Shown: positions 5,430-33,349 of the stretch, one piece after another
How positions within the stretch are numbered: the first letter of the stretch is position 1
How the letters are laid out: each line of letters opens with the position of its first letter
Assembly (NCBI GenBank): GCA_016871015.1
Contig: VFZX01000018.1
Location: forward strand, 1 to 45,103
Source: Acidobacteriota bacterium
GTDB lineage: Bacteria; Acidobacteriota; Terriglobia; Bryobacterales; Bryobacteraceae
DNA length: 45,103 nt
Reading direction: 5' to 3'
Notes under the pieces: model-generated
Databases searched by the model: none
What the model was told of the DNA's origin: nothing
Seen by the model: the letters and a program-made list of their open reading frames with translations, nothing else
Translations under genes and position numbers: made by a program

Positions 5430-5692
5430 AGCGTTACTCTCCTTCAGACATCCTCCCGGATGTAGAGACCGGAACGCCTCGAAACTACTTGTTTGTCCCC
5501 GTCTTACCAGCTCATCTCTCCCTTCAAACGAGATTCGGTTCGGTCTGTGGGATCGACCATGCTATCCGGAATTTCCGTTTTGGCTTCCGGTCCGGACTCA
5601 GTATACACGCGCCTGCCTCCCTCCGCGTGCATCGGTAGCGCCCGCAGCGCGCCGCCCTCATCCGGGTCAGCATAGACTCCCAAACACCGGGT
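5430..5692. other. Intergenic region with an in-frame continuation of the upstream gene
   Basis: Beyond the TGA of the upstream secreted protein (5695-5693), the same minus-strand frame stays open for about 62 codons to TAA at 5504-5506. It has no RBS and only moderate GC at third positions, so coding is uncertain. No promoter was recognised for the leader and isomerase. Confidence 0.35.
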
Positions 5693-6613
5693 TCACGGGC
5701 GGCGTCCGTATTCCACCGGACTCCGGGCGGCTCCCATCCCGACTTCGATCCAGTTCTCCCATCCTGGTTCGCGGCTCATGCGGACCATGCAGTCGTAACC
5801 TTGCTTGGCCTTTTCAAGCCACAGAGCCGGGCCTCCTTCCCAGGGCTGCCTCTCGCCGGGCGCGGCCAGACGCCAGGTGCCGCGCAACCACTTGTCCTGT
5901 GGATCACCGCGGAGGACCTCCCACACATACGAGCCACCGGGCTGAATGGTGAGCCGTCCGGACTCGGCCTGCGAATCGGTCCGCGTGACAACAGTGGTGG
6001 CTCCTTGCGTGCGGACACTCGTGCTGCCACGATTGGCGGCGCGCAGCAGCCACACGCCCATGTAGTCGCCAGGCTGGGGCGGCTTGCCGTGGTTCGCATC
6101 CACCGCGGAGTTGATGTGAACCGACATGGTGCCTTGCGCGCTCATCTGGTTGCTGAAGGCGAGATCGTACCGGAACGATGTTCCCCGCTCCTTGACGTAG
6201 TCGCGGATCGCAAGGAGAATGGCGTCGCGCTTGGGGTTGCCCCAGGGATCCGGACCCATGAGGCTCTTCGCGTAGGAGACCACCTGTTCCCGGGTGAGCA
6301 GGCCCTCTCCTGTTGGTGGCGCGACTGTCCCGGTGACGGTGGGCATCACCGGTGGCTTCGCCGGTTTCGCACCAGGCCGTCGCACTTCATCGATTGCGTA
6401 GGCCCGCTCGGAGCCTTCGGGGAAGAACTGTGAGGGCTTCTGCCGGATCAGGACCTGTTTGCCACCCGGAATCTCGCGGACGAAAACGCCAGGCTCCCAA
6501 GTTTCGGACGACGTCCGGTACTCGATAGCTTCGCCAGGCTTGTAGGACTGAGCGAAGGCCGTGACCAGGGCCAGAACAGCCGTAAAGAAGAGTCTCACCA
6601 TCTGGATCAACAA
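5693..6613 (-). CDS. Secreted protein with Tudor/SH3-like N-terminal domain, unknown function
   Basis: 306 residues. The TTG at 6613 is preferred because AAAGGAG lies 6 nt upstream; an ATG at 6601 would also give the signal peptide MVRLFFTAVLALVTAFAQ. After cleavage a short beta domain (about 24-80, YKPGEAIEYR...WEPGVFV...AYAIDEVRRP) resembles the Tudor/agenet-like modules found in many secreted bacterial proteins, where it probably binds a ligand. The rest (about 110-300) contains an HINSAVDANHG segment and a WEVLRGDPQDKWLRGTW segment and matches nothing I recognise. It is the fourth gene of a minus-strand operon, starting 14 bp after the glycosidase-like gene, so a role in handling an extracellular substrate is inferred. 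Confidence 0.75.
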   Translation of the reverse strand: MLIQMVRLFFTAVLALVTAFAQSYKPGEAIEYRTSSETWEPGVFVREIPGGKQVLIRQKPSQFFPEGSERAYAIDEVRRPGAKPAKPPVMPTVTGTVAPPTGEGLLTREQVVSYAKSLMGPDPWGNPKRDAILLAIRDYVKERGTSFRYDLAFSNQMSAQGTMSVHINSAVDANHGKPPQPGDYMGVWLLRAANRGSTSVRTQGATTVVTRTDSQAESGRLTIQPGGSYVWEVLRGDPQDKWLRGTWRLAAPGERQPWEGGPALWLEKAKQGYDCMVRMSREPGWENWIEVGMGAARSPVEYGRRP

Positions 6614-6626
6614 CCTGGGCTCCTTT

Positions 6627-8948
6627 CTAACGCGACGGGCACGCGCGAAGCATCAGCCACGCCTCTGCCAACTGCACTGCGCGGCCGGCTCCGCCTTCTC
6701 CCGGACGGCGCTCGAAGCGCAAGCGCAAGTCCCCGTCGGCTGTCGCCTCGCGCGGAATGTCGAATTCAAGCTGCGATACCGGGACCGGTTTCTTGCGCCA
6801 TCCGTGGACCTCGGCGCCGCCATCGGCCAGCAGCCGGAAATCGAAAGGTGCGGCTTCGCCCGCGTAGGTGATCCGGATCTTGTAGCAGGACTCGCGGCCG
6901 AGCCCGGGGTAGTGCAGCTCCAATGGCGAGTCGTCGCGGGATTCGGCGTGCGTCTGCCAGAACACGGGCCACTGTTCGTTCGGACGCTGTGTGGCGGCGC
7001 TGAGCGGCGAGACCAGGTGCGCCGGATCATCGGGATAGGGCTTGCCGCGCACCAGATGCGGCTGGCGCGATGGATTGCCCAGGTCGTCATAGAATCCACC
7101 GGGGCCGGGATTGTCCCAATCGAGAAGCGAGTGGATTCCTGCCATGCGTTGCGCTTCGGAAGGCATCGCACGGATCTGGTCGAACTGGAGCTTGAGCCAT
7201 ACCTTGTTGTTGAGCGGCGTGTCGATCAGGTCGAGATTCGCGCCGCGGCCCACGGCGATCGCCTTGTAGAAAGGGACGCTCAACTGCATGCGAATCGACT
7301 GGAACAGGGCTTCGGCCAGCTCGACTGTGCGGGCGCGCCAATCGGCCGCGACGCGGTGGGTCACGGCGCTATCGAGGATCGCTTCGGCCTGTTGCAGCGC
7401 AAGCTTCGATCCCAACTCGCCCGCCGAGCGAAGCTTCTCACGGGCGCGGTCTTCGAGTGCGGTTTCGTGGATGAGGCGCGCCCGCACATAGGCGTCGTAG
7501 TGAGCGCGGTACTGCGCCTGCTGGAATCGCCAGTTCTGCTGAAGGGCGGGAGTGGCCTCGTGATCCATCTTCTGGAACTGCCTCAGCGTCGTGTAGACGC
7601 TCTCGTTGGCCGTGAGCGGTCCGCGCCAGTTTCGCTCCAACCCGAAAAGGCCTTGCGCGAAACCCTCGGAAAAGCGGTGTCCTATAAAGAAGCGAGAGTA
7701 CTCGCGGAGGATCGCGCCGAGGTCGGCGCCGGGATCCCAGCCGAGTCCGCTCCAGATGATCTTATTGACGTCGTCGTTGCAGCCTTCCGAGTAGGTGATG
7801 AAGCCGGCGGTATGCTGGTTGGTGTGGCGGAAGATGTGGCGCTGATCCACCGGCCGCGGATTGATGGGCTCGCGCTGGAGCGTGACCTGATAGGCAAAGT
7901 CCCAGTTGGGCACCGCGTATTGAGCGCGCAACGAGTGGGTGATGTCCGGATAGTGGCGGATCGGATAGCGCGCCGGAACCTTGGCTCTGAGGTCGGCGAG
8001 GCTGACGCGGATCTGCGGCCCAAAGACGACACCGTCGAGCCACTTGGGCTCCGTTCGCAGGATCGAGTAGAACTCGGTGAGCCATTCGGTTGAGAATCCC
8101 TGGGGCGCGACCCACATCTGCGACTTGGGATGGAAGCGGCGAAGCGAGGCGGCCTGCTTTTCGAGCATCGGCATCAGAAATTTCGGATGCGTGTGGCCGG
8201 GATCGCCGCCGGGAACAAACACCGCGTCGATGCGGGGCAGCTTGCGGAACACCTCGGCCCACTCCTTGAGTGCGAAGTCGACGTCCTTTTGCTGGCCGTA
8301 GTCGGGATCGAGCGCGGGATACCAGATCCAGACGTCGAGTCCGTACTCGTCGCAGATCTTCGACATCCCGGTCATGGTTTCCATCTTCGGCAGCGGGAAG
8401 TGCGGCGAATCGTCGTCGTCATCGGAGCGCGGAGGAATCAGCTCAATCGCGTTCGTTCCGAACACCGCGAGTTCGCGGATGTACTGGTCCCACATGGCAA
8501 GAGTCCAGCCGTCGTAGGAATTGGTCTTCGGCCGGTATCCCAACTGGTGGCCACGCATGGCGACCTTGGGCGCGGTAGTGACGCGGAATCCGTCCGGCGC
8601 TTCGATCATTCCGCGCTCCATTCGCAGGACCCGCAGCAAGTGGCCAATGCCGAACAGCACGCCGCGGGCGTCATTGCCTTCGACGCGAATCCGGTTGCCT
8701 TCGACCGCGATCGTATAGCCTTCCTTCGGTCCGCGATTGGTATTCGAAACAGCGATCACGGGTCCCGCGGGGGGCTGCGTAGCGACCGGCCACCGGATCT
8801 GGCTGCGCTTTTCGACTTCCTCGACGAGCACCTGTACGGCCTTCTTCTCGCGGGCAGAGAACCCGGCAGGAGCGGTGACCATGGCCTGTTTCAGGTCGAG
8901 TGCGATGAGCGGCGCTGTGAGCGCGAGTGAAGTGAAGAAGCGGTTCAT
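6627..8948 (-). CDS. Secreted glycoside hydrolase-like protein (GH20/GH67-type N-domain plus TIM barrel)
   Basis: 773 residues with signal peptide MNRFFTSLALTAPLIALD. Residues about 20-125 form an alpha/beta domain of the kind that precedes the barrel in GH20 hexosaminidases and GH67 alpha-glucuronidases (EGYTIAVEGNRIRVEGNDARGVLFGIGHLLR). A probable TIM barrel follows (about 135-440), with acidic patches such as ELIPPRSDDDDD, the segment WIWYPALDPDYG and the segment FVPGGDPGHTHP. The C-terminal third is mostly helical and ends in a beta-sandwich-like part. I cannot place it in one GH family. The ATG overlaps the stop of the PIG-L deacetylase gene by 4 bp, so the two are made together; an amino-sugar or uronic-acid substrate is a reasonable inference but not shown. 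Confidence 0.75.
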   Translation of the reverse strand: MNRFFTSLALTAPLIALDLKQAMVTAPAGFSAREKKAVQVLVEEVEKRSQIRWPVATQPPAGPVIAVSNTNRGPKEGYTIAVEGNRIRVEGNDARGVLFGIGHLLRVLRMERGMIEAPDGFRVTTAPKVAMRGHQLGYRPKTNSYDGWTLAMWDQYIRELAVFGTNAIELIPPRSDDDDDSPHFPLPKMETMTGMSKICDEYGLDVWIWYPALDPDYGQQKDVDFALKEWAEVFRKLPRIDAVFVPGGDPGHTHPKFLMPMLEKQAASLRRFHPKSQMWVAPQGFSTEWLTEFYSILRTEPKWLDGVVFGPQIRVSLADLRAKVPARYPIRHYPDITHSLRAQYAVPNWDFAYQVTLQREPINPRPVDQRHIFRHTNQHTAGFITYSEGCNDDVNKIIWSGLGWDPGADLGAILREYSRFFIGHRFSEGFAQGLFGLERNWRGPLTANESVYTTLRQFQKMDHEATPALQQNWRFQQAQYRAHYDAYVRARLIHETALEDRAREKLRSAGELGSKLALQQAEAILDSAVTHRVAADWRARTVELAEALFQSIRMQLSVPFYKAIAVGRGANLDLIDTPLNNKVWLKLQFDQIRAMPSEAQRMAGIHSLLDWDNPGPGGFYDDLGNPSRQPHLVRGKPYPDDPAHLVSPLSAATQRPNEQWPVFWQTHAESRDDSPLELHYPGLGRESCYKIRITYAGEAAPFDFRLLADGGAEVHGWRKKPVPVSQLEFDIPREATADGDLRLRFERRPGEGGAGRAVQLAEAWLMLRACPSR

Positions 8949-22617: not shown

Positions 22618-24387
22618 ATGCGCCCCCTGATCGCGTTATTGTTCGCAGCCGCTGGCTTCGCCCAGCAGACACAGCAATTGATGTTCTGGCCCGTCCGCGG
22701 AGTCCGTGAGATGGTCGGCGCGGCAAATAACTTCGAGGTGGACGCCGGATACCGGATGCTGCTGCAAGGGGGCAACGCGATCGACGCGGGCGTCGCGTCC
22801 ACGCTCGCCGCCGCCGTTACGGAACAAGCCCGCTTCGGGCTGGGCGGCGAGATGCCGCTCATCATCAAGATGGCCGGCAAGGATCCGGTTGTGATCAGCG
22901 CGGTAGGAGTCGCACCGGCCAAAGCCACGGTGGAGTTCTATCAGTCGCGCAAGGCGGAACCCTGGGAAGAGGGGCAAGGCAAGCTGGCGCCAGTGCCCTT
23001 CACCGGCATGCTCGGAGTCATCACGCCGGGCGTGTTCGACGGACTCATGCTCGCCCTGCAGGATCATGGCACGATGTCGTTTGAGAAGGTCGTCACACCC
23101 GCCATCGAGTTCGCTTCCGGTGGATTCCCCCTCGGAGAAGAGTTCGCCAGCTTCATCCGCACCAACACGCGGATCATCGAGCTTTGGCCCACGTCCCGCG
23201 ACTTCTTCATGCCGGGCGGAACCGCGCCCCGCCGGGGGGACGTGTGGAAGGGACAGGCCCTGGCCAACACGCTGCAGGAACTGGTGCGAGCGGAGAAGAA
23301 GGCACGCGGAAACCGGGCCAGGAAAATCCGCGCTGTTCGCGATTACTTCGGACGCGGACCCATCGCCAGGAGGATCGCCGACTACTCCCAGGCCAACGGC
23401 GGACTGCTTTCCTTCGACGACATGAAGAATTTCAACGCCGAATATGATCAGCCGCGGACCACCACCTACCGCGGCTACACGATCGTCAAGACTGGCTTCT
23501 GGGCGCAAGGTCCGGTGATCCTGCAGGCGTTGAACATCCTGGAGGCCTACGACCTGAAGGCGATGGGGCACAACAGTCCGCGGTACCTGCACACGCTGGT
23601 GGAGGCGGTAAAGCTCGCCTTCGCCGACCGCGACCGGTACTATGGGGATCCCAAGTTCTCCAAGATCCCCGAAGAGACGCTGCTCTCGCGCGAGTACGCC
23701 GCCGAACGGCGCAAGCAGATCGACCCGAACCATGCGTCCATGGATCACCGGCCAGGGAGCTTCGGAGGTCCGCTCGCGATGCCCAGCGGTGGTGGATCAT
23801 CCGGCGGCATCCAGGACACCACCTGTGTCAACGTGGTGGACCGCTGGGGGAACGCTTTCAACGCCACACCGAGCGGCGCCTGGCTGCCATCGGTGATCGC
23901 GGGCAATACCGGAATCCCGCTGAGCTCGCGCCTGCAGTCGTTCGTCACCACTCCCGGACACGCGAACATGCTGCGGCCCGGCGCGCGTCCGCGTGTCACA
24001 CTGAGCCCAACCATGGTCCTGAAGGACGGGAAGCTCTCTTTCATTATGTCCACTCCGGGCGGCGACAACCAGGATCAGGCGATGCTGCAGGTATTGATCA
24101 ACATGATCGACTTCGGCATGATCCCGCAGGAGGCCGTCGAGGCGCCCCGCTTCCAGACCGAGCATTTCCATTCTTCGTTCGCGTTCCATGAATTCACTCC
24201 CGGCAAGGTGAACCTTGAGCGGAGAATTCCGAAGAGCGTGATCGACCGGATGTCGGAGATGGGCCACCAGGTTGAGGTGCGCGGCGATTGGAGCAACGCA
24301 TCCGCACCCACGGTGATCCTGGTGCGCGACGGCATGCTCGACGGCGGAGCCGATCCGCGGCGCGGCCGGTTTATTTTCGGACGTTAG
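22618..24387 (+). CDS. Gamma-glutamyltransferase family protein, secreted
   Basis: 589 residues with signal peptide MRPLIALLFAAAGFAQ. It has the Ntn-hydrolase layout of GGT: large-subunit motif GGNAIDAGVASTLAAAV (51-67) and, at the subunit junction, D400-T401-T402-C403-V-N-V-V-D. T401 is the expected nucleophile created by self-cleavage. The usual THxSVVD motif has Cys403 instead of His. Small-subunit features GNAFNATPSG and LSPTMVLKDGK follow, and MSTPGGDNQDQAMLQVL fits the family. It hydrolyses or transfers gamma-glutamyl groups, or is a cephalosporin-acylase-like amidase. The 3' end overlaps the convergent JAMM gene by 17 bp. Confidence 0.9.
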   Translation: MRPLIALLFAAAGFAQQTQQLMFWPVRGVREMVGAANNFEVDAGYRMLLQGGNAIDAGVASTLAAAVTEQARFGLGGEMPLIIKMAGKDPVVISAVGVAPAKATVEFYQSRKAEPWEEGQGKLAPVPFTGMLGVITPGVFDGLMLALQDHGTMSFEKVVTPAIEFASGGFPLGEEFASFIRTNTRIIELWPTSRDFFMPGGTAPRRGDVWKGQALANTLQELVRAEKKARGNRARKIRAVRDYFGRGPIARRIADYSQANGGLLSFDDMKNFNAEYDQPRTTTYRGYTIVKTGFWAQGPVILQALNILEAYDLKAMGHNSPRYLHTLVEAVKLAFADRDRYYGDPKFSKIPEETLLSREYAAERRKQIDPNHASMDHRPGSFGGPLAMPSGGGSSGGIQDTTCVNVVDRWGNAFNATPSGAWLPSVIAGNTGIPLSSRLQSFVTTPGHANMLRPGARPRVTLSPTMVLKDGKLSFIMSTPGGDNQDQAMLQVLINMIDFGMIPQEAVEAPRFQTEHFHSSFAFHEFTPGKVNLERRIPKSVIDRMSEMGHQVEVRGDWSNASAPTVILVRDGMLDGGADPRRGRFIFGR

Positions 24388-25666
24388 GACCGCGCTTCAA
24401 CTGGGCGTCCGCCCGCCGGATCTGCAGATCGAGGTTCTGGCGGTCTGCGTTTTCATCGCTGATGGCGCGCCGCAACCGGTCGATCTCTTCTTGAAGCTCG
24501 GGTGAAACTTCCGCCGCCGGCTTGGGCTCGGGTACCGGCGCCGGCTTCTTCACGGGTTGTCCCACGAACCGCTTAATGTCGCGCACGGTCATCACGTCGC
24601 CCAGAAACATCTCGATCCGTACCTCGACGTTCTCGGCCTGGCGGCGGTAAACCACCGAGCCCTCGCGGACATCGTCCTGGTCAAGGTCGAGGGAGCGTTT
24701 GGCGGCGCCGTCAGCGATGTAGATATTGCCGCGTGTGGCTTTCCGCACAGCGGGCAGGTTCCGGTCCCACGTGATCGCCAGCTCCGATGCGACCTCTTCG
24801 ACCCGCAGCGCGGCGGGAACCGGCCCGGAGGGAGCGGAAGTCCCCAAAAGGTACCAGAGCAGACCGGCAGGCACGGCGATGAGCGCGGCGAAGACCGCGA
24901 TGGTCTTCCAGGGGAATCCCGGCGGCTCGGGCACGGGCGGGAGATCGGCGGGCTCCGGGGGAGCAGCAACCGGTTCGCGCTGGGGTATCCGGCCCGGCGG
25001 CGGCACCAGCGTCGGCGCGGGCGCGCTCGATCCAGCCTGCGCTGGACGTCGACGGTCCCGCCGCTGCGGCCCCTTGCGGAGCGCGGTCATCCGGGTGGGT
25101 GCGGTCAATGCCGCCGGATCCGGCGCCACGGGAAACTCGTGGAGGCTCGACTCAGCGCGGATCGCCCCGCCTTCCTCGCGAACGAAGAATCCCGCGGAGG
25201 CGCCGTTCTCCTTCGAGAGACGCATGACGAGGGATATCTGCCATGGCTCCGGGAAGAAGCGTTCATGGATCTTGAGGTCCTCGGCGGAAAGGAAGATCTT
25301 GCTGCGGGTGTGCGTATGGAACCAGCCCACCGGCTCAAGCCCCCGCAGCTCGGGCGCGGAGGCACACGTTGCAAGCAAGGCCTCCATTCCCGTAAGGTCC
25401 TTGGGAGACAGCACGAATCCTGGCCCTCTGGCATGTTCGCATTGGATGGGCCGCCATTCCAGCACCCGGACGGCGTCCTGATCGTGGTTGCCGAACAGCA
25501 GAGCGCCGACTTCAATCCCGCCGTGCGGGATCTTTTGAAAACCTTCCTCCGCCATCACGCGGAGCTCTTCCATTACTTGGCGCGAGTACTCCACCGCCGT
25601 CCCATTGCCGGACGGACGCCAGACCGCGAGATCGCTGTTTCTTCTATCTGCGGGTAATGAAGCCAT
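24371..25666 (-). CDS. Membrane-anchored JAMM/MPN metalloprotease with FN3-like and coiled-coil tail
   Basis: 431 residues from ATG at 25666; the frame runs further upstream but without a better start. Residues about 22-180 form a JAB/MPN domain with the full JAMM motif: Glu52 (GGIEVGALLFG) and H117-T-H119-x7-S127-x2-D130 (GWFHTHTRSKIFLSAED), so it should bind zinc and be active. Then come a basic, proline-rich linker (about 195-250), one membrane helix (253-275), an FN3-like beta domain (about 283-355), a second Pro-rich linker (370-388) and a short coiled coil (389-425). The basic residues before the helix suggest JAMM inside and the tail outside the inner membrane. JAMM proteins cleave isopeptide bonds of ubiquitin-like tags or cysteine/cofactor adducts; no UBL or E1-like gene is nearby. 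It is divergent from two permease genes. Confidence 0.85.
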   Translation of the reverse strand: MASLPADRRNSDLAVWRPSGNGTAVEYSRQVMEELRVMAEEGFQKIPHGGIEVGALLFGNHDQDAVRVLEWRPIQCEHARGPGFVLSPKDLTGMEALLATCASAPELRGLEPVGWFHTHTRSKIFLSAEDLKIHERFFPEPWQISLVMRLSKENGASAGFFVREEGGAIRAESSLHEFPVAPDPAALTAPTRMTALRKGPQRRDRRRPAQAGSSAPAPTLVPPPGRIPQREPVAAPPEPADLPPVPEPPGFPWKTIAVFAALIAVPAGLLWYLLGTSAPSGPVPAALRVEEVASELAITWDRNLPAVRKATRGNIYIADGAAKRSLDLDQDDVREGSVVYRRQAENVEVRIEMFLGDVMTVRDIKRFVGQPVKKPAPVPEPKPAAEVSPELQEEIDRLRRAISDENADRQNLDLQIRRADAQLKRGPNVRK

Positions 25667-25713
25667 GAAACGCCGGGGTCCGCGTCCTCCTCCGTCCACT
25701 CTCAAGTTTGACC

Positions 25714-25744
25714 GAACGGGAACGTCCTCGCAACCGTCTAGAAT
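25714..25744 (+). promoter_or_regulatory. Possible ECF-type promoter before the permease pair
   Basis: GAAC at 25714-25717 and CGTCTA at 25735-25740 stand 17 nt apart, which resembles GAACTT/TCTGA-type promoters of extracytoplasmic sigma factors. TTGACC (25708-25713) and TAGAAT (25739-25744) are also present, but 25 bp apart, too far for sigma70. Weak call. Confidence 0.25.
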
Positions 25745-25779
25745 GGGGTAAGGTACTCTTCGTCCCGTTCTAGCCCCGA

Positions 25780-27065
<1,286 letters not shown>

Positions 27066-27069
<4 letters not shown>

Positions 27070-28313
27070 GAGTGCAAGTTTCCGAGACCATGCGGATGGC
27101 TCTGGGGGCCGTGTGGGCACACCGCTTCCGGTCGGGGCTGACGATCCTGGGCATCGTGATCGGCATCACGACCGTGGTCACCGTGTCGAGCCTGCTCACC
27201 GGACTGCGTCAGGGCATCGTCACCTTCTTCGAAGAGTTCGGACCAGACAACATCTTTGTGAGCCGCGTCTCGGGCGACCCGTCCTCGGACGGACTGCCGA
27301 AGGAGCGGAAGCGCCGGCCGATCCGGCCGGAGTACGCCGAGATGATCGAACGGATGAGCCCGTCGGTCGAGCAATCGAGCGTCTCTTTGTTCATTCCGTC
27401 GATCTTTCGCGGCCGTCCCTTGACAGCAAAGGTGCCAGGGTTTGAAACCGACAACGTGAACGTGGCCGGAATCTCGCTCAGCGGATTCGACACCCAGCCG
27501 CGCGAACTCAAGGAAGGCCGCCTGTACACGCGGGAAGAGGAATCGCGCGGCGATCGCGTCGCCGTGATCGGAGTCAACACAGCCGAGGCGCTGTTCCCGG
27601 GACAGTCCGCCGTAGGCCGCGAGTTCATCCTCGATGGAGCGGAGTTCCGTGCCGTGGGAGTGTTCGCGCCGGCCAAGGGCAGTTTCTTCGGCGAGAACGG
27701 ACTGGACCGCCAGGTCGCCATGCCGCTGCGGACAGCTCAAATGCGCTATCCCGCCATCGACCGGTACTTCATTGTCTGCAAGGCCCGGCCGGGGCAGCGC
27801 GATGTCGCCCTCGAAGAAATCGCGGCGGCGCTACGCAAGATCCGCCGCTCGCCGCCCGGCATGGACGATTTCAACGTCTCAACGCCCGATTCGATCATCA
27901 AGCGCTTTGACGCGTTGACCGGGATGATCGTGCTGGTTTCCATCGCGATTTCCGGCCTAGGGCTTCTGGTTGGAGGCATCGGCGTGATGAACATCATGCT
28001 GGTGTCGGTGACCGAGCGGACGCGGGAGATCGGGGTCCGCAAGGCGCTCGGCGCGCGCCGCAACGACATTGTGTATCAATTCCTGCTCGAAGCGGTCACA
28101 CTGACCGGCGTGGGCGGACTGATCGGCATCGTCTTCTCGATCCTGGTTACGCTGCTGGTGAGCGTGCTGGTTCCGGCCCTGCCCTCGGCGGTGCCCGCCT
28201 GGGCCGTGGTCACGGGATTCTGCGTGTCCGTGGCGGTCGGGTTGTTCTTTGGCGTGTGGCCCGCGTTTCAGGCGTCCCGGATGGATCCGGTGGAAGCGCT
28301 TCGCTACGAGTAG
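27066..28313 (+). CDS. MacB/FtsX-type ABC transporter permease (orphan)
   Basis: 415 residues with the same plan as its upstream partner: helix at about 22-42 (SGLTILGIVIGITTVVTVSSL), periplasmic core, and three C-terminal helices with NIMLVSVTERTREIGVRKALGARR. The pair probably forms a heterodimer, since the genes overlap by 4 bp and neither has an ATPase domain. They resemble each other enough, notably in this motif and in the ASRMDPVEALR C-terminus, to be an old tandem duplication. The partner ATPase and adaptor may be those of the opposite-strand operon (30129-34517). Confidence 0.92.
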
Positions 28314-30128: not shown

Positions 30129-30839
30129 TTATCGCACTTCCCAGTCTTCCGGCTGCTGGCCCTCGGGTAGCAGCGCGCCCTTGTCGAGGTAACGGATCTT
30201 GGATGCCGCCCGCGCCGCATGCGGATCGTGCGTCACCATCACGACCGTCTTGCCGAACTCCCGGTTCAGCCGCCCCAGCAGCGTAAGCACCTCGCGTGCC
30301 GACACGGCGTCGAGGTTTCCAGTCGGCTCGTCGGCAAGCAGCAGATCCGGATCCGTAACGATCGCGCGCGCAATCGCGACCCGCTGTTCCTGGCCGCCGG
30401 AAAGCTGCCGCGGCGTGTGATCCAGCCGGTCGGCAAGGCCCACCAGTTCGAGCGCCCGGCGCGCATGCTCGATCCGCTGGCTCTTGCTGAGCTTCGTAAG
30501 CTTCAACGGCAGCTCGACGTTTTCGAGCGCGGTCAACACCGGAAGCAAATTGAACGACTGGAAGACGAATCCGATGTGCGCGTTGCGCCATTTGGCGATC
30601 GCGGACTCGCTTAAGCCGCGCAGGTTCTGGCCGAGGACATTGATGTCGCCCGACGTTGGGCGGTCCATCGCAGCGATCAAGTGCAACAGCGTGGACTTGC
30701 CGGAGCCCGACGGTCCCATGAGCGCGACGAACTCGCCCTTGTCCACCGTCAGGTCGGCCCCGTTCAAAGCCACTACCTTGAATTGGTCGCGTGCGAATTC
30801 CTTGCTGAGCCCACGCGTCTGGATGATAGGTTCACTCAT
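30129..30839 (-). CDS. ABC transporter ATP-binding protein, LolD/MacB type
   Basis: 236 residues with all nucleotide-binding motifs: Walker [11 protein letters not shown]-loop in [21 protein letters not shown], signature [14 protein letters not shown], Walker [13 protein letters not shown] and the H-loop MVTHDPHAA. The [17 protein letters not shown] and DEPTGNLD segments are typical of the LolD/MacB/FtsE group that drives type VII (mechanotransmission) transporters. Its ATG overlaps the adaptor stop by 4 bp. It most likely energises the two permeases of its own operon; it may also serve the orphan permease pair at 25780-28313. Confidence 0.95.
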
Positions 30840-32173
30840 GGCAGTAATTTGATGCGCGCGGAATCGGCAAGCCCGGCGGGCGGATCCACGATCACGTCTT
30901 CTCCTCCGATCAGTCCGTCTTCGATGCGGACGCCCTGGCTGGTGGAGGCGCCTGCTTTCACCGCCCGCCGCACGGCCTTTCCGTTCACCGCCACGAACAC
31001 CGCGCCGGAGCGCACCGCGCCGGCTGGCACGAACACCGCGGGCTGCGCGGGTCCGGCCACAGGGCGCCGACCGGGGTCCAGGGCCAGAAACGCGACGCTC
31101 GCGTTCATCTCAGGACGCAAGTAGGAATCCGGGTTCAACACTTTCACTTTCACCTGGACGGTCGCCTTCTGGCGGTTGGCCTCGGGCGACATCTCCTCGA
31201 TCACGCCGTCGTACTTGCGGTCGCGGTAGGAATCCGTGGTGATGATCCCGCGGTGGCGTGGGGACAGCTTGCCGAAATCGTTCTGGCTGATGTCGAGCTC
31301 GACTTGAAGGTCGTTCAAATCGGCCACCGAGACGACGTAGCCCTTCGCCCCGCGTTCGCCAACAAACGACGTGGTGACGAACTCGCCCTTTTCGACAGCG
31401 CGTTCGAGAATCGTGCCGGTGACCGGCGCGCGAATCACGGTGTTGGCGAGCTGTGTCTCGAAGTACGCTACCTGCCCCTTGGCCTGCAAGATCTGGCCGC
31501 GCACCTGGTCGATCTGTTCCTGGCGGGGTCCAATGCGGACCAGCTCGTAGCTTTTCTCAAGCGAAGCCACGCGCGCCGTGTTGGAATCGAAGCGTGCCTT
31601 GGCGTCGTCGAGCGCTTGCGCCGCCATCACCTTCGCCTCGGCGAGCCTGGACACGCGATCAAGATTCACCTTGGCATTGGCGAGGTCCGCGCGGGCCACG
31701 TCGAGATTGGCCTTCGCCACCTGGATCTCTTCCGGCCGCGATCCGTTGAGCAATTCCTGCAGCCTGGCCTCCAGCGCCACGAGCTGCCCCTTGGCCTGCT
31801 GAAGCTGCGCCTTGTACTCGTCATCCTCCAAGCGGACGATCACTTGGCCTTCGCGCACGCGGTCGCCCTTTTCGACGCCGATCCAGGCCACTTTGCCCAC
31901 CACCTTCGATGCCAACTGGATCTTGTGATGCGCGACGATATAGCCGGTGGCGTTGAGGATCACGTCATCCACCGCACCCTGCGCACCCGCTTCGGCCCGC
32001 ATTGCCCGCACGGTCCGCACCTCGACAGGAGTCAGTCCTCCGAAGTACTTCGCTCCCGCGCCCGCGATCAGGAACAGGGCGATCCCGCCCACAATCCATC
32101 GGCGCGCCCAAGGCGACGGCTCGCCCGCCTTGAGCGACTTGTCAATTTTCAGACTGTGAAGGTCCTGAGACAT
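30836..32173 (-). CDS. HlyD/MacA-type periplasmic adaptor subunit
   Basis: 445 residues. An N-terminal membrane helix (about 27-45, [21 protein letters not shown]), first half of the lipoyl/barrel-sandwich domain ([24 protein letters not shown]), a long alpha-helical hairpin (about 105-225, with repeated [16 protein letters not shown]-type heptads), the second half of the lipoyl domain ([21 protein letters not shown]), then beta-barrel domains. It should bridge the inner-membrane permeases with an outer-membrane TolC-like channel, which is not in the window. The two permease genes lie upstream, the ATPase gene overlaps the end. Confidence 0.93.
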
Positions 32174-32182
32174 GCTGAATGA

Positions 32183-33349
32183 TCAGACTTGCCGCAGCGC
32201 CGTCAGGATTTGTTTTCTTGCGGCGGACCAGGCGGGGAACACTCCTCCAACCGCACCCAGAACCAGGGCGAAAGCCACTCCCACCGCCATGATCCTGGGC
32301 GTAACCGCGAACTGGAACGTGATCTCGCTGAACGTGGTGATGCTTCCGATAGCAGTGCCAACGTTGTTCAACGGCAGCACCAGCAGGCAGCCAAGAAGGC
32401 CGCCGATCAGGCTGAGCAGCAGAGACTCAATGAGGAAGCTCGCCAGGATTCCGGTCCGCGAGAATCCAAGAACACGCAGGGTGCCGATCTCGGCCGACCG
32501 GCGCGCCACGGCCGCGTACATCGTGTTCATCGCCGCGAAGCAGGATCCCACCGCCATGATCACCGACACGAACATACCGACGGCGCGGACCGGCGCGGCC
32601 GACTGCGTCTGTTGCGCCAGGTAAGCCTTCTCCGATAGCGCTTCCGGCTTCAAACGGCGGTCCGCCTTGAGGTCGTCGATCAGGGCCTGCATCGACACTT
32701 CGTTCTCAGCCCGCACCAGGATCGAGCTGAGCCCGTTTTCGCGGTTCTGGTCCGACGCGATCTGCGCCAGGTCGCAGAAGATCTCGCTGTTGGCGACCGA
32801 TCTCCCCGCATCCAGCACGCCGACGACCTCCCAGTCGCCGCGGCCGAACTGGAGTTTCCCGCCGATGCGTGCCATGGGATACTTGGCGGCAATCCCCTTG
32901 CCCACCACCACCTCGCGGCGGCCCGGTGTGAACATCCGGCCTTCGGAAATCCGGGCGCCCTCGCGCATCTTCAATCCGGCAATGGTGAGTCCGCGGACGG
33001 TGACGTTGATGCCTCCCGGGTTCTCCGGGCTCTCGAGCACAATGACCGTAACCAGTTCGAGCGAGGCCATCGGGTTCCCGGACGCGTCCTTCGCGATGCC
33101 CGGTTTGGTCTTCACCACGCCGTACTGTTCCTGTGTCACAGCCGACACGAGCTCAGCCGATGCGCCAGTCCGCATCACCAGCAGGTGCAACGGATGCCCG
33201 GAGGTTTCAAGCGACGTCCGCAGTCCCTCGGCAAGGGCCGAGATGCTCAGGAGCACCGCGACCGTGAGGGCGATTCCCAGCGCGGTCATGATCGTGGTCG
33301 TCTTGCGCGCGGCCAGGTTACGCAGGTTGTAGCTGAGCGGGATCGCCAT
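32183..33349 (-). CDS. FtsX-type ABC transporter permease
   Basis: About 388 residues from ATG at 33349, 4 nt after the stop of the preceding permease; a longer frame from 33379 would overlap that gene. One N-terminal helix (NLAARKTTTIMTALGIALTVAVLLSI), a periplasmic domain (about 45-265), and three C-terminal helices with YAAVARRSAEIGTLRVLGFSR, the FtsX counterpart of the MacB motif. It is one half of the probable permease heterodimer encoded with the adaptor and ATPase. Confidence 0.93.
   Translation of the reverse strand: MAIPLSYNLRNLAARKTTTIMTALGIALTVAVLLSISALAEGLRTSLETSGHPLHLLVMRTGASAELVSAVTQEQYGVVKTKPGIAKDASGNPMASLELVTVIVLESPENPGGINVTVRGLTIAGLKMREGARISEGRMFTPGRREVVVGKGIAAKYPMARIGGKLQFGRGDWEVVGVLDAGRSVANSEIFCDLAQIASDQNRENGLSSILVRAENEVSMQALIDDLKADRRLKPEALSEKAYLAQQTQSAAPVRAVGMFVSVIMAVGSCFAAMNTMYAAVARRSAEIGTLRVLGFSRTGILASFLIESLLLSLIGGLLGCLLVLPLNNVGTAIGSITTFSEITFQFAVTPRIMAVGVAFALVLGAVGGVFPAWSAARKQILTALRQV

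Follow-up and report, generated by a model that had tools for sequence, protein, structure and literature searches.

What does a JAMM domain do when it is tied to the membrane and encoded back to back with a pair of transport permeases? The question is raised by a 45,103-nucleotide stretch of Acidobacteriota DNA (contig VFZX01000018.1; "the window" is this whole stretch), in which an earlier note, made from the letters alone, had described a JAMM protein with a membrane helix and had suggested that it may serve in signal-controlled proteolysis or tag removal at the membrane. Our tentative answer is that the gene encodes a permease-linked membrane protein of the MPN fold, that the role of this protein is non-catalytic in much of its family, and that the clade to which the window protein belongs, which has kept the zinc site, is probably catalytically competent. 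The features of the protein are as follows.

24371-25666, minus strand: membrane-anchored JAMM protein, 431 amino acids (open reading frame and translation, with the start codon ATG at 25666; similar start position in relatives)
25127-25609, minus strand: JAMM/MPN domain, residues 20-180 approximately, predicted cytosolic (Pfam JAB and Prok-JAB slightly below cut-off, AlphaFold2, Foldseek and VIA)
25511-25513, minus strand: predicted catalytic Glu52 (translation; Glu in six of seven clade members, Gln in L066)
25277-25318, minus strand: zinc ligands H117, H119 and D130 plus Ser127, HTHx7SxxD (translation; motif as in PMC300881; invariant in all seven clade members)
24911-25108, minus strand: Pro/Arg-rich linker, residues 187-252 (translation; low AlphaFold2 confidence; 11 Lys/Arg in residues 187-256)
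24839-24910, minus strand: single transmembrane helix, residues 253-276 (hydropathy maximum 2.32; low-confidence AlphaFold2 helix)
24557-24805, minus strand: FN3 domain, residues 288-370, predicted extracytoplasmic (tail modeled with AlphaFold2; matches at Foldseek E 1.9e-4 and VIA Z 10.9)
24392-24502, minus strand: C-terminal helix, residues 389-425, coiled-coil-like (helix in both AlphaFold2 models, full-length and tail alone)

The complete JAMM motif that the earlier note had read from the letters is there: E52, H117-T-H119, seven residues, S127, two residues, and D130 follow exactly the spacing EXnHS/THX7SXXD, as the motif is defined in PMC300881, with Glu52 in the context GGIEVGALLFG and the histidines in GWFHTHTR. 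The Pfam models Prok-JAB (E 9.1e-5; 22.8 bits against a curated cut-off of 25) and JAB (E 2.4e-4; 21.3 bits against 22.5) both match significantly but slightly below cut-off; among the relatives, L083 and L036 exceed the JAB cut-off, and L082 and L255 have no Pfam match. A scan of the window protein against NCBIfam gave no match, and a sequence search against solved MPN proteins (Prp8, AMSH, and an archaeal Rpn11 homologue) gave weak ones, the best at E 0.0064. A longer reading frame, from an in-frame start at 25792, would overlap the beginning of the divergent permease gene (25780); in alignments, relatives agree with the shorter frame.

Structure prediction, which the earlier note had named as a check, supports the fold. 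In the full-length AlphaFold2 model (mean predicted local distance difference test score [pLDDT] 69, nine alignment rows), a mixed alpha/beta domain at about residues 13-180 is followed by a beta domain (residues 288-368, block means 81-92) and then by a helix (residues 389-425). Foldseek links the JAMM part to MPN structures at E 2.7e-7, and VIA aligns 143 residues of it with the Caldiarchaeum Rpn11 homologue (6fno) at Z 16.4 (root-mean-square deviation [rmsd] 2.8). The tail, modeled alone (pLDDT 82, three alignment rows), matches FN3con with a Foldseek E of 1.9e-4 and reaches Z 10.9 in VIA (rmsd 2.4, 90 residues), where the matches listed are mostly FN3-type chains by title. By these models, the window protein has an MPN fold and an FN3 tail, in line with the FN3-like tail of the earlier note. 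Although the same VIA comparison includes the Cap3 structure 9ild (Z 14.4), the PADLOC JAB model matched at only E 0.034 and no CD-NTase occurs among the 11 scanned called neighbors, and we do not place the protein with Cap3 of cyclic-oligonucleotide-based antiphage signaling systems (CBASS) or with defense JAB proteins.

The Pro/Arg linker and single membrane anchor also stand. As the AlphaFold2 helix at 253-276 is of low confidence (block means 43-50), the call of a membrane helix leans mainly on hydropathy (maximum 2.32, with the scoring window starting near residue 256). Because the linker side of this helix is rich in lysine and arginine (11 in residues 187-256) and the far side has one (residues 277-290), an N-in/C-out topology is favored, which would put the JAMM domain in the cytosol and the tail in the periplasm.

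Is the zinc site under selection? The window protein forms a clade with six relatives (L043-L047 and L066) at 38-55% pairwise identity. In all seven, H117, H119, S127, and D130 are invariant, and Glu52 is present in six. Invariant columns number 61 of 161 in the JAMM domain, 11 of 83 in the FN3 domain, and 5 of 69 in the linker. From this pattern, we take it that selection keeps the site in this clade.

The wider family is different. Among the 62 best-matching proteins, a set of top matches and no random draw, H-x-H is kept in 26 (25 of them with Glu52) and missing in 36: the first histidine is Arg in 19 and V, L, I, or E in 16, and several sites are broken in one. A census of 22 genomes gave 55 copies, not counting one fragment (L226); the full E, H, H, D set occurs in eight copies from six genomes, one of these being the E1-linked JAMM of L233, and is incomplete in the other 47. 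On trees, ligand loss is repeated, with eight label changes on the first and seven on a second made without the long branches L083 and L036. As the ligands are lost in most other members, the basic role of the family does not appear to need the zinc site. The earlier note had made conservation of the JAMM ligands among homologues a test of its idea, and the outcome is split: the ligands have held in the window's clade and are lost in most homologues, including most of those beside permeases. Because of this loss in the wider family, proteolysis is only a plausible reading, and for the window's clade.

These losses bear on the alternative of a pure scaffold, in which the MPN domain does not work as a protease in any member and the window's clade has intact ligands merely as a remnant, structural or ancestral, such as a metal site that stabilizes the fold. 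Degenerate sites in so many of the top matches and census copies would be expected of a scaffold, as would their presence in 17 of 18 copies from newly fetched permease regions (described below) and the sequence of L066, which has lost Glu52 and yet keeps H, H, S, and D. However, the residues kept in the window's clade at about 40% identity include two that are not ligands, Ser127 (seven of seven) and Glu52 (six of seven), and the repeated losses elsewhere on the trees indicate that JAMM residues are free to be lost. We consider a pure scaffold somewhat unlikely. An obligate heterodimer of ligand-intact (MPN+) and ligand-less (MPN-) copies was considered and rejected: 16 of the 22 census genomes contain no ligand-intact copy, and all eight g124 loci in the tree have the Arg form.

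Does the link to the permeases extend beyond the window? The divergent neighbors are, as first described, two MacB-type permeases.

25667-25779, no strand: divergent intergenic region, 113 bases, between the JAMM gene and permease 1 (open reading frame coordinates)
25780-27069, plus strand: MacB-type permease 1, MacB_PCD + FtsX (Pfam; all 80 fetched regions have a relative of it next to permease 2)
27066-28313, plus strand: MacB-type permease 2, MacB_PCD + FtsX (Pfam; matched at E<=1e-80 in 188 of the 200 genomes from the same bacterial family)

Whether the pair is conserved was a check proposed with the original description. The pair itself is: in its best matches listed, the window excluded, permease 2 shows 58-82% identity across genomes of the same bacterial family. 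We fetched 80 permease regions, those listed with enough upstream contig. In 18 of them, a JAMM-family gene lies upstream of the pair and is oriented away from it; 13 of these genes are immediate neighbors, and five are separated from the pair by a single aldo/keto-reductase-like gene (judged by eye). With the window and L043 (whose contig stops inside permease 1), L044, L045, L065, and L066, the linkage extends over 11 genera. Of the 18 newly fetched copies, L140 has an intact zinc site, and the site is degenerate in the other 17. The permease link thus survives ligand loss, which argues for a shared role that is non-catalytic, and since most permease-linked copies lack conserved ligands, the link does not need proteolysis.

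No ATPase or membrane-fusion gene lies directly beside the permease pair in the window. The nearest such genes, for an ABC (ATP-binding cassette) ATPase (30132-30839) and a HlyD protein (30836-32173), lie on the minus strand together with a separate MacB-type permease gene (32186-33349). Without an adjacent ATPase and near-universal in its lineage, the tandem pair at 25780-28313 is possibly a core envelope transporter. The minus-strand MacAB-type set as a whole (30129-33349) lies close to the plus-strand pair.

A third gene touches both partners. It encodes a small membrane protein of about 100-130 amino acids with the core W-x-x-x-GGQ-x-x-x-D (examples are L166:1614-1982 and L057:10435-10827, group A3). 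Of the 62 regions in which the permease pair has no JAMM gene, 24 have this gene divergent to the pair, 23 directly and one (L169) about 1.1 kb away. At eight loci, it lies directly upstream of JAMM paralogues, with stop and start overlapping as ATGA in four and as TAATG in a fifth. The small gene and a JAMM gene never occur together in one of the 80 fetched permease regions. Pfam matches are weak, the best being FA_desaturase (E 2.4e-5, 24.7 bits; cut-off 29.7) in one of four members scanned; we do not take the protein for a desaturase.

Could the neighborhood reflect shared ancestry alone, the JAMM gene and permeases being functionally unrelated? The JAMM gene is present in just 18 of the 80 regions, and unrelated genes take the place in many others, as this alternative would have it. 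Against it are the spread of the linkage over the 11 genera, the small membrane protein, which is operonic with JAMM paralogues and divergent to the pair elsewhere, and an outgroup JAMM encoded with a ubiquitin-like protein (UBL) and an E2 behind a MacAB-type operon (L254). We regard shared ancestry alone as quite unlikely.

If instead the protein is a permease-linked MPN protein, as we favor, it would be held in the inner membrane by a single pass, with the JAMM (MPN+) domain on the cytosolic side, joined by a flexible Pro/Arg linker to the membrane helix, and with the FN3 domain and final helix in the periplasm. It would work with the divergently encoded MacB-type pair: at the permease, the MPN domain would bind a partner or substrate from the cytosol, probably the common, non-catalytic role of the family, and the FN3/helix tail would contact the periplasmic side. 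In the window's clade, the domain would probably also act as a metalloprotease, cutting a peptide or isopeptide bond in some substrate on the cytosolic side of the membrane. The analysis shows the motif, the predicted folds, conservation of the site within the clade, and the recurring gene neighborhood; we infer the topology, physical contact with the permeases, the substrate, and, from the residues that are kept, probable catalytic competence in this clade.

Several observations weigh against this reading. The pair stands without a JAMM gene in 62 of the 80 stretches fetched, and so does not require one there. L047, a member of the window's clade, has no permeases beside it, and L066, with Gln for Glu52 and the other four residues in place, is probably inactive and still permease-linked. 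L140, the sole ligand-intact copy from the 18 new regions, appears by eye to have no FN3 domain. Permease-linked copies do not form a single clade (five label changes, weak deep support, on a tree in which L046, whose contig ends at that point, was scored as unlinked), and ancestry is therefore not neatly separated from function. Finally, a search of the window's own genome, made with no positive control, did not turn up the small membrane protein.

How did a JAMM domain come to be here? No UBL, E1, or E2 is found by Pfam among the 11 called genes around the JAMM gene (18.8-33.3 kb), as the earlier note had said of UBL and E1. It is possible that the UBL and its activating enzyme are encoded elsewhere in the genome and that the window protein strips this UBL from membrane targets. 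Such a deconjugase would suit the best structural matches, which are archaeal and eukaryotic deubiquitinases, and the location of outgroup JAMMs of the phylum in UBL/E1/E2 operons (L254, L251). The window's own genome, moreover, encodes two ThiF proteins and a ThiS-type UBL domain. However, that ThiS domain already has its own JAMM, a soluble one to which it is fused, in a row with a PALP (cysteine-synthase-like) enzyme and one of the two ThiF proteins, a ThiF-rhodanese (L252:4980-7803; G000:C231); it is from this locus that the domain is known, ThiS/MoaD not having been searched genome-wide. In addition, the genome gave no UQ_con E2 in a search that matched the positive controls G205 and G026 and that divergent forms could escape, and no YukD-type UBL in one that matched B. 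subtilis among 14 controls and that a divergent or free-standing UBL could escape. We consider a UBL deconjugase improbable.

The JAMM-ThiS locus is of the familiar sulfur-carrier kind of bacterial JAMM. Its presence in the genome is a point for the idea that the window protein processes a sulfur carrier of the ThiS, MoaD, or CysO type, as known soluble bacterial JAMMs do. But that system has its own JAMM, and the window protein differs from it in being anchored in the membrane and in lacking neighbors of this kind; sulfur-carrier processing is, in our judgment, very improbable.

The clearest outgroup JAMMs sit in UBL/E1/E2 operons, and for this reason the family is probably a detached derivative of UBL-linked JAMMs. 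At L254:7672-12242 (G026:C274), a HlyD-type protein, ABC ATPase, MacB permease, YukD-like UBL, UQ_con E2, and JAMM are encoded on one strand, with small gaps among the final four genes. At L251:8075-15621 (G205:C18), within the window's bacterial family, an E1, a JAMM with a hydrophobic helix, FHA, Prok-RING/TM2, three GYF-like genes (one of them scanned), and an E2 are found. Other loci are less clear. L258 and L259 have an E2-like neighbor below the UQ_con cut-off; L262 has a ThiF gene and a sub-cut-off YukD-like gene near a JAMM match outside any called gene; and L263 has ThiF and UQ_con genes, with a JAMM-matching open reading frame that has no Pfam match. L260 and L261 fit a UBL origin poorly, as no UBL, E1, or E2 is seen among the called neighbors of their JAMM genes (the JAB match is above cut-off in L260).

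In the simplest history, a JAMM with a membrane helix would have separated from a UBL operon and multiplied, its zinc site being lost repeatedly. A more ambitious version sees here a transporter-coupled MPN system of a new type: a JAMM domain freed from UBL conjugation would have become a membrane-anchored partner of MacB-type permeases, the same genomic slot being filled by active or by zinc-less versions, and the MacAB-UBL-E2-JAMM arrangement of L254 would represent an ancestral stage at which attachment and removal of the UBL set the state of the transporter; we offer this as an unlikely extension. The proteasome lid and the signalosome are the settings in which the MPN fold is most familiar. 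Were the favored reading true, bacteria would have taken this fold out of ubiquitin-like chemistry and into cell-envelope transport, as a recurring membrane-anchored part in which catalysis was repeatedly lost.

The window gene is one copy of a lineage-specific paralogous family that is near-universal and often multi-copy in its bacterial family (probably Bryobacteraceae) and rare outside it. The family was matched in 195 of 200 sampled genomes of this bacterial family. In a phylum sample of 199, a single-sequence search matched three genomes, the window's own among them, and a 37-row profile matched 12: two of the window's bacterial family, G188 with the entire architecture, G196 with the membrane/FN3 part, and eight with the JAMM part alone. 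In an order sample, 128 of 150 genomes were matched, and among the matches listed only G404 is outside the window's bacterial family. Titles and abstract openings in the open-access literature yielded no description of a membrane JAMM-FN3 family in Acidobacteriota or of JAMM together with MacB.

The window's own genome has two further members, both with damaged JAMM sites: L002/L082, in which H117 is Arg, and L003/L083, in which E52, H119, and D130 are all replaced. L083 (8242-9936) and L036 (5977-7941) carry additional, mutually similar-looking C-terminal domains past the FN3 part. Other members have other neighbors. The Arg-form paralogue group is divergent to a TP_methylase (rsmI-like) gene, with a ClpB-like AAA+ gene near some loci, and a separate ligand-intact group lies near a YCF48-like gene. 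At L047 (10721-12632), the divergent neighbors are a penicillinase-repressor-like gene and an M56 (BlaR1-like) peptidase in place of permeases. In the window, the JAMM gene overlaps a gamma-glutamyltranspeptidase gene (22618-24387, plus strand) tail to tail by 17 bases (24371-24387).

How does the protein compare with known systems? With the JAMM/MPN+ metalloproteases (AfJAMM, PfJAMM1, the Caldiarchaeum Rpn11 homologue, Csn5, and BRCC36) it shares the MPN fold and the EXnHS/THX7SXXD motif, at 8-23% identity among the structural matches listed. It differs in its membrane helix and FN3 tail and in a genome in which no E2 or YukD-type UBL was detected. The soluble sulfur-carrier JAMMs of the CysO/Mec+ type, represented in the same genome at C231, differ in having no membrane helix and in their neighbors. 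MacB/LolCE-type ABC permeases share MacB_PCD and FtsX with the neighboring pair, which stands in tandem without an adjacent ATPase or membrane-fusion gene.

The bacterial UBL/E1/E2/JAB operons, as described in the operon accounts of Iyer et al. (2006; PMC1779556), have the JAMM domain in common with the window gene, and the L251 JAMM likewise has a hydrophobic helix after the domain. Unlike the genes of those accounts, the window gene adjoins no UBL, E1, or E2 and belongs to a multi-copy family with frequent ligand loss. Closer in architecture are the Bacillota JAMM-transmembrane-LysM proteins (L037-L042, at about 5690-6690), which also combine a JAMM domain, one hydrophobic helix, and an extracytoplasmic-type domain and which share with the window family an ERFFPEPWQ block past the motif. 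Their extracytoplasmic domain is LysM (in five of six scanned), not FN3, and in L040 the JAMM gene lies beside a glutaminase gene, with a GTPase gene and, nearby, a threonyl-tRNA-synthetase-like gene as further neighbors.

Eukaryotes pair MPN+ with MPN- partners, as in Rpn11/Rpn8 and Csn5/Csn6. Here, too, ligand-intact and ligand-less paralogues occur in one genome. Unlike the eukaryotic pairs, however, the bacterial family has no obligate active partner, since most census genomes (16 of 22) hold only ligand-less copies.

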